Shown: piece by piece, positions 59,528-60,727 of the stretch
Position numbering within the stretch: position 1 is the first letter of the stretch
Layout of the letters: each line of letters starts with the position of its first letter
Translations under genes and position numbers: made by a program
The notes under the pieces: generated by a model
What the model saw: only the letters and a program-made list of their open reading frames with translations
The model's database searches: none
Told to the model about the DNA's origin: nothing
DNA from: Pelagibacteraceae bacterium AG-410-N23
GTDB lineage: Bacteria; Pseudomonadota; Alphaproteobacteria; Pelagibacterales; Pelagibacteraceae
Direction of reading: 5' to 3'
Length of the DNA stretch: 63,560 nt
Assembly: GCA_003215055.1 (NCBI GenBank)
Contig: QCKW01000005.1
Coordinates: forward strand, 1 to 63,560

Positions 59528-59701
59528 ATGGGTTCAATTGATGGAGAGATTCCTGCTGTATGGTTTTTAATCAGTTCAATTGGATTTGTGATATTAAGTC
59601 TTATTCAGTACAGAAATACTGGAAAAAGTTTTAATACTATTTTTTTATTTGTAATGGCTGCAATATTCTTTGTTAGTTACTTGATAATTCTTACAAAATA
59701 A
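59528..59701 (+). CDS. 57-residue membrane protein, function unknown
   Basis: ATG 59528 to TAA 59699-59701. The product starts MGSIDGEIPAVWFL and has two hydrophobic helices (about 9-27 and 36-54) joined by a polar QYRNTGKSFN turn. It lies between the divergent integrase and the structured RNA element. No family recognised. Two clean helices and a normal composition favour a real gene, but there is no strong ribosome binding site. Confidence 0.5.
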   Translation: MGSIDGEIPAVWFLISSIGFVILSLIQYRNTGKSFNTIFLFVMAAIFFVSYLIILTK

Positions 59702-59702
59702 A

Positions 59703-59765
59703 AGTTATCACCATAATTCACAATAGATCTAGCTATTTTAAAAAAACAACTATTTAGTGATAACT
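59703..59765. repeat. Perfect 9-bp inverted repeat with 45-base spacer
   Basis: AGTTATCAC (59703-59711) and GTGATAACT (59757-59765) are exact complements. A smaller AATAG/CTATT repeat (59722-59726 and 59733-59737) lies inside. Both arms contain the TGATAA word also found before the integrase. The right arm overlaps a possible -35 element (GTGATA, 59757-59762) for the structured RNA, with TAATAT at 59781-59786 as possible -10. Confidence 0.5.
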
Positions 59766-59795
59766 ATTTAAGTACTTTTCTAATATAGTAAATTT

Positions 59796-59983
59796 AACTT
59801 AAGAGGCAACTCTTAACTGGCCAGCTAGAGAAAGGCCGAGAGGTTTAAGTCTAGAGGGCAGAAAACCCTGTAAAGCAGCGCTAAACATACGGGGTGGTCG
59901 GTTCGGCGGTAGCGCATACAACGACGAACCATAAAATTCTGATCTTTGCACCGTAAAAAAGTGTGAAGTATCAGGGTTTTTTT
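59796..59983 (+). ncRNA. Candidate structured RNA or leader, family unknown
   Basis: About 190 bases, much richer in G+C than the surroundings (69 of 130 bases in 59801-59930). Structures seen by hand: TTAAGAG-GCAA-CTCTTAA (59799-59816), a perfect stem with a GNRA loop; AGGG/CCCT (59855-59869); a stem 59900-59910/59920-59930 (GGTTCG with CGAACC, then G-A mismatches); GCGCT (59878-59882) able to pair with AGCGC in the loop of that stem (59911-59915), a possible pseudoknot; then an intrinsic terminator. It carries no convincing ORF. Either an independent small RNA, or a regulatory leader of the MGMT gene that starts 3 nt later. Ends are estimates. I do not recognise a known family. Confidence 0.6.
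59933..59983 (+). terminator. Intrinsic terminator ending the structured RNA
   Basis: Stem CTGAT (59939-59943) / ATCAG (59970-59974) continued by CTTTGCAC (59944-59951) / GTGTGAAG (59961-59968) with two G-U pairs and one unpaired T, loop CGTAAAAAA, followed by T-rich 59977-59983. Upstream AAAATT can extend the pairing into the T tract. It ends 3 nt before the MGMT start codon. Confidence 0.85.
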
Positions 59984-59986
59984 ATT

Positions 59987-60265
59987 ATGAAATCTCTTTC
60001 AGGCACAATATTTCAATTAAAAGTATGGAAATACCTAAAAACAATACCAAAAGGACGAGTAAAAACTTATAAACAGGTTGCTATTGCAATAAAAAGCCCT
60101 AAATCAGCACGTGCTGTAGCTAATGCTTGTGCTAAAAACCCATATGCTCCAAAAATACCTTGTCATAGAGTGATCAGGTCTGATGGAACCCTTGGAGGCT
60201 ACTCTGGTAGAGGTGGAATTAAGCAAAAGCTTAAATTACTTAGATCTGAAAAAGTAGCTATTTAG
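59987..60265 (+). CDS. MGMT/Ogt-family protein, DNA-binding domain only
   Basis: 92 residues from ATG 59987. An earlier in-frame GTG at 59963 would lie inside the terminator stem, so I reject it. The protein consists only of the C-terminal domain of O6-alkylguanine-DNA alkyltransferases: helix-turn-helix with the Arg finger (SARAVANA, Arg43) and acceptor Cys59 in IPCHRVIR, then GGYSGRGGIKQKLKLL. The N-terminal domain is missing. Unlike alkyltransferase-like (ATL) proteins, which have Trp at this place, the reactive Cys is kept, so alkyl transfer is possible. It is preceded by no Shine-Dalgarno sequence, only the terminator T tract. Confidence 0.9.
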   Translation: MKSLSGTIFQLKVWKYLKTIPKGRVKTYKQVAIAIKSPKSARAVANACAKNPYAPKIPCHRVIRSDGTLGGYSGRGGIKQKLKLLRSEKVAI

Positions 60266-60290
60266 TGCTATTTTAAACCTTTTTTAAGTT

Positions 60291-60319
60291 AAAAAAGTGT
60301 TTTAAATCAACACTTTTTT
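60291..60319. terminator. Intrinsic terminator after the MGMT gene
   Basis: Perfect 11-bp stem AAAAAAGTGTT (60291-60301) / AACACTTTTTT (60309-60319), loop TTAAATC. The A and T runs at the ends allow function in both directions. It begins 25 nt after the MGMT stop. Confidence 0.85.
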
Positions 60320-60727
60320 ACCTTTTTGCGTAGTTTCTCTCAAAAAAACGTAATTCACCCTTCAGTTGTACCATGTATTAGCCTATACCAAAAATAGACC
60401 CCTCTATGGACGTTTAAATGCTATATTCAATTAGTGCATCGCTCTACTATTTAACTATATCAATGCTTTTAGACTACCCCTATTTTTTAGAAATTTTCAT
60501 AACCACAATCGAAAAAAGTCGCTATTTTAATGGTTTATTTGATATTTTTCATAATTTGTTATAAATCTACATTCTTGCAGAGCAATTTAATTTGATTTTG
60601 ATATTAAATAATCAAAAACACTCAAAAAATTATGTAATTTATATTATTAATAAAATACAATAATTACAATATTTTACATTAAATACTTAATGTAATACTT
60701 TAAATAATAGTAAATAAATAATACCTA
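60320..60727. other. Gene-free stretch, AT-rich
   Basis: About 410 bases between the MGMT terminator and the end of the leftward EamA gene. I see no gene, tRNA or clear regulatory site. One perfect inverted repeat, TTACATTAA (60674-60682) / TTAATGTAA (60687-60695), loop ATAC, lies downstream of the EamA gene, but no T tract follows it on that strand. It is the longest empty stretch in an otherwise packed window. Confidence 0.6.

Follow-up and report, generated by a model that had tools for sequence, protein, structure and literature searches.

We found that positions 59792-59983 of the window, the whole 63,560-nucleotide stretch of Pelagibacteraceae bacterium AG-410-N23 DNA that we analysed, are likely to represent IMES-2 as a free-standing small RNA of SAR11, about 190 nt long. 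SAR11 is among the ocean's most abundant bacterial groups. IMES-2 is an already known family, whose first description is reportedly that of Weinberg et al. (Nature 2009); what we add to it is its host range, its empty sites, support for a pseudoknot and its upstream signals.

Identity and host range of the RNA

A cmscan search against Rfam returned RF02035 (IMES-2) as the sole family for the region. The match, at 59792-59932 on the forward strand, scored 151.2 bits (E 1.6e-39), well over the curated gathering cut-off of 54.7 bits, and was untruncated over model positions 1-141. The likeness covered the whole 141-nt model, with the same stems and conserved loop letters; the four-hairpin consensus was present with few non-standard pairs, and its relatives covaried. 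An earlier note on this DNA had tentatively assigned the RNA to an unknown family and had staked this on there being no strong match to IMES or similar. The Infernal-type Rfam scan gave such a match, to RF02035 at 151 bits, so "unknown family" is false. The Rfam structure line does not contain the pseudoknot between hairpins P3 and P4, and the Rfam model omits the upstream boxes and the terminator seen here (Table 1).

Table 1. Features of the IMES-2 locus in the window
Feature	Position	Strand	Evidence or remark
Upstream box A, TTATCACCATAATTCACA, consensus TTATCCMCAnTATTCACA	59705..59722	+	Outside Rfam model
Upstream box B, consensus AATCAACTAnAAAGTGATAC, -35 region	59744..59763	+	Outside Rfam model
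Probable extended -10 element, TAATATAGT, family consensus TGnTAnnnT	59781..59789	+	No mismatch in most g1 sequences
IMES-2 RNA core	59792..59932	+	Full Rfam model 1-141
Hairpin P1, 7 bp, GCAA (GNRA) loop	59799..59816	+	100% of cells paired; two-sided changes in 5/7 pairs
Hairpin P2 with inner stem P2b (59834-59845), GAGA loop	59817..59861	+	Two-sided changes in 9/11 and 4/4 pairs
Hairpin P3, loop with GCGCU	59865..59895	+	Two-sided changes in 8/8 pairs
Pseudoknot 5' side GCGCU, partner AGCGC 59911-59915	59878..59882	+	4/5 pairs kept in 34/34 sequences
Hairpin P4, loop with AGCGC (59911-59915)	59900..59930	+	Two-sided changes in 5/9 pairs
Intrinsic terminator: hairpin 59933-59980, T-run 59977-59983	59933..59983	+	Fold
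MGMT-type gene, C-terminal alkyltransferase domain, PCHR motif	59987..60265	+	PF01035, 1.8e-32; neighbour, outside RNA

IMES-2 is present as a single copy in the window's genome. It was found in 54 of 147 Pelagibacterales genomes, one copy each, in four genera of one family (g1, the window's own, g2, g5 and g6), and was absent from the control genomes of the same survey. SAR11 members were the only carriers among the 385 alphaproteobacterial genomes sampled. One g2 member, L103, escaped model R1 but scores 80 bits with Rfam. Hosts with and without IMES-2 are now named, providing natural plus/minus pairs for testing.

Two candidate explanations were rejected. IMES-1 (RF02034), likewise a structured RNA whose name derives from marine sequences, had no member over the cut-off in the 147 Pelagibacterales genomes and no cmscan match to this sequence. 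Phage carriage of IMES-2 was rejected because an exact-pattern search of viral contigs returned no match.

Hairpins, covariation and the P3-P4 pseudoknot

The interval 59801-59930 contains 69 G+C in 130 nt, exactly the hand count of the earlier note, and this was the top 130-nt value in the window when scanned in 5-nt steps (window GC 27.2%). The RNA 59792-59985 (194 nt) gave a predicted folding energy of -66 kcal/mol, compared with -46.1 +/- 4.1 kcal/mol in shuffles (z -4.86); 0/200 shuffles were that low. The stems, GNRA-capped hairpin, pseudoknot and terminator proposed from the letters were all located at their given positions, and there are two GNRA loops, GCAA at 59806-59809 and GAGA at 59838-59841. 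The premise that GC-rich islands signal structured RNA is backed by a 2009 structured-RNA survey of Candidatus Pelagibacter ubique, which describes GC-enriched intergenic regions as marking RNAs and names tmRNA, SRP RNA, RNase P and riboswitches (PMC2704228).

We aligned 29 sequences from three genera and observed two-sided changes in 22 of 44 pairs; with five distant g2 sequences added (34 rows), the number rose to 32 of 44, supplying the covariation in SAR11 homologues that had been suggested as a check. In the 34 rows, 226 cells were two-sided (shuffles, 59.4 +/- 7.3), and the paired share of cells was 93.4%, compared with 34-43% when the partner was slid; fitting the rows to the hairpin model biases these hairpin counts its way, and the pseudoknot lay outside that model. 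The P1 loop in g2 is still GNRA (GCAA or GUAA), the P2b loop is not conserved in g2, and one model pair of P4 is a constant mismatch. These results indicated that covariation across the 34 sequences backs every hairpin from P1 to P4.

The pairing between the P3 and P4 loops, which the earlier note had called a possible pseudoknot, is backed by a double change in the distant genus: 29 rows have G-C as the middle pair, and all five g2 rows have A-U there. Seven of the 34 rows lack the outermost pair. The change from G-C to A-U was probably a single compensatory event, and for this reason the evidence is good, not overwhelming. On these alignments we count the predicted loop-loop pseudoknot between P3 and P4 as established. 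Dimerisation through the palindrome AGCGCU, in place of an intramolecular pseudoknot, is disfavoured, as the g2 counterpart AGCACU is non-palindromic and the P4 pairing is kept.

Gene contexts, empty sites and flanking signals

The earlier note had left two alternatives, a stand-alone small RNA and a termination-controlled leader of the MGMT gene; the first held up and the second did not. In the leader reading, the RNA would be a riboswitch or attenuator in which a signal alters the terminator and hence the expression of MGMT in DNA repair. The arrangement in the window's genus suits it: the MGMT ATG, at 59987, lies 3 nt past the T-run with no evident Shine-Dalgarno sequence, as had been noted, and IMES-2 occupies this same place and order in 52 of the 80 named MGMT loci. 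The gene order in g1 is tyrosine recombinase (-), small membrane ORF (+), IMES-2 (+), terminator, MGMT (+), EamA (-). In g5 and g6, however, mnmA lies upstream of IMES-2 and a convergent membrane-protein gene downstream, and in g2 an SNase-type gene lies upstream and a convergent SRAP gene downstream. In the convergent contexts there is nothing to be led, and IMES-2 is not consistently upstream of, and co-directional with, a regulated gene. Moreover, the remaining 28 of the 80 MGMT loci are without IMES-2, and MGMT there follows the small ORF almost directly: among loci with a recognised small ORF, the distance from its stop to MGMT is about 275-299 nt where IMES-2 is present, against -3 to 7 nt where it is absent. 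The fold also shows no evident alternative antiterminator pairing. On the gene contexts and empty sites we rejected the leader, and we give it the least credence of the alternatives considered here.

The window's closest relative by flank, L120 (92% identity), is without IMES-2, and on the flank tree the plus/minus label requires 9-13 changes, a number that recombination in SAR11 can inflate. The empty sites and the scattered distribution indicate that IMES-2 is accessory and that MGMT is independent of it. One IMES-2-free locus, L166, is an exception in spacing: an inserted ORF that looks acetyltransferase-like by eye only (1080-1500) separates the small ORF from MGMT. The small ORF itself, at 59528-59701 (+), encodes 57 aa of membrane type (MGSIDGEIPAVWFLISS...); it is conserved next to MGMT, abuts MGMT where IMES-2 is lacking, and had no Pfam match.

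IMES-2 carries conserved signals of its own. In each of the four genera, box A lies 74 to 88 nt upstream of the RNA with 0-5 mismatches (shuffles average 6-7), and a search of 61 genomes gave at most one match to its pattern per genome. It resembles two adjacent head-to-tail DnaA-type 9-mers, a resemblance only. Box B keeps to -46 to -49 in both g1 and g2, with few mismatches compared with 7-8 in shuffles. Both boxes travel with IMES-2 and persist in g2 despite the different flanking genes. TAATATAGT, at 59781..59789, is a probable extended -10 element. A generic promoter scan found promoter-like sites no commoner than in shuffles. Downstream of the core, a terminator-type hairpin with a T-run is found in g1, g2 and g6; a few rows of the terminator table give 0, the script having picked the wrong T-run. 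The generic terminator scan accepts loops of <=8 nt, so the 9-nt loop of the IMES-2 terminator escapes it.

Most g5 members speak against a stand-alone gene: box B is degraded there, AAGTGAT excepted, and the T-run after the strong hairpin is poor. The stand-alone reading is supported by the full-length Rfam match, the single copy, the restriction to SAR11 in our samples, and the covariation and pseudoknot. It is further supported by the three gene contexts (two with a convergent gene downstream), the conserved boxes and downstream hairpin, and the empty sites with MGMT intact. Judged from this comparative evidence, we count IMES-2 as a conserved, structured, free-standing RNA gene.

Candidate modes of action and a neighbouring probable terminus region

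We propose that IMES-2 would be transcribed from its own promoter, with a transcript of ~190 nt ending at its own terminator, and would fold into a compact globular RNA with kissing loops and a GNRA tetraloop. It would act in trans via a protein partner, not by Hfq-assisted antisense pairing or control of MGMT. Where MGMT follows, it would probably be reached by terminator read-through, as a positional side effect. A protein partner is the most likely mode on our inference, which draws on the compact pseudoknotted core, the small number of conserved letters left unpaired and the absence of Hfq and CsrA matches in 14 SAR11 genomes.

Hfq (PF17209) was matched in 0/14 SAR11 genomes and in 5/14 controls including E. 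coli, with a first-look filter that can miss short proteins; CsrA (PF02599) was matched in 0/14 SAR11 genomes and in 3/14 controls including E. coli. Neither an Hfq-dependent antisense sRNA, which presupposes an encoded Hfq, nor a CsrA-sequestering RNA of the CsrB type, which presupposes an encoded CsrA, fits these results. A trans-acting antisense sRNA could still pair with mRNAs unaided by Hfq or helped by another chaperone, and a free-standing, single-copy, terminator-ended gene of typical sRNA size would agree with that. We regard this as unlikely: no Hfq match was obtained in those genomes, the conserved letters lie mostly in helices, the pseudoknot or GNRA loops, and, the AUACAACGA side of the P4 loop aside, few conserved positions stay unpaired to serve as a seed.

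6S RNA (RF00013) is also a free-standing small RNA of similar size; its architecture is different. A covariance-model search found no 6S match in the region, in the window's genome or, with strict filters for the order-wide search, in any of the 147 Pelagibacterales genomes, yet it found 6S in the Caulobacter and E. coli controls. IMES-2 is thus not 6S by this test, and the gap could be filled by IMES-2 as a functional stand-in that binds RNA polymerase. IMES RNAs, IMES-2 included, are reported to be abundant marine transcripts, which would fit that role. However, the IMES-2 fold, with its four short hairpins and pseudoknot, differs from the long rod and open central bubble of 6S. IMES-2-free genomes are also without a 6S match, so IMES-2 is no obligatory replacement. 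With the presence pattern not shared and the fold different, we rejected 6S replacement, and a stand-in role seems very improbable. The SAR11 genomes covered by the 6S, Hfq and CsrA negatives include G000, G001, G003 and G015 (loci L001-L108). With all three matches absent from the SAR11 genomes searched, candidate RNA regulators there are few, and IMES-2 is among them.

The protein-partner reading can be extended to an accessory, Hfq-independent regulatory RNA with a dedicated regulated promoter (boxes A and B), whose kissing-loop core would form a new kind of RNA-protein complex and which would pass from one SAR11 strain to another through recombination at the terminus of the chromosome. We hold this fuller picture to be a long shot.

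The gap between MGMT and EamA contains a conserved non-coding DNA block (about 60278-60517), whose core motif was found in 80/80 named MGMT loci. Its 30 aligned copies had a mean identity of 84% and no consensus fold on either strand, and the window's copy had no open frame; our first reading of the block as a second RNA was dropped because no such fold was found. GC skew and gene direction flip at the block both in an IMES-2-bearing genome (G048) and in an IMES-2-free one (G003). In g1, and likewise in g5, where IMES-2 sits elsewhere, MGMT is closely followed by the 27-nt core (60413-60439). We take this core to be like the E. coli dif site, and the block is probably the chromosome terminus/dif region, independent of IMES-2. 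A tyrosine recombinase gene (PF00589; 58494-59447, reverse strand) also lies beside MGMT in those related g1 loci that we examined; it may have a connection with this probable dif site.
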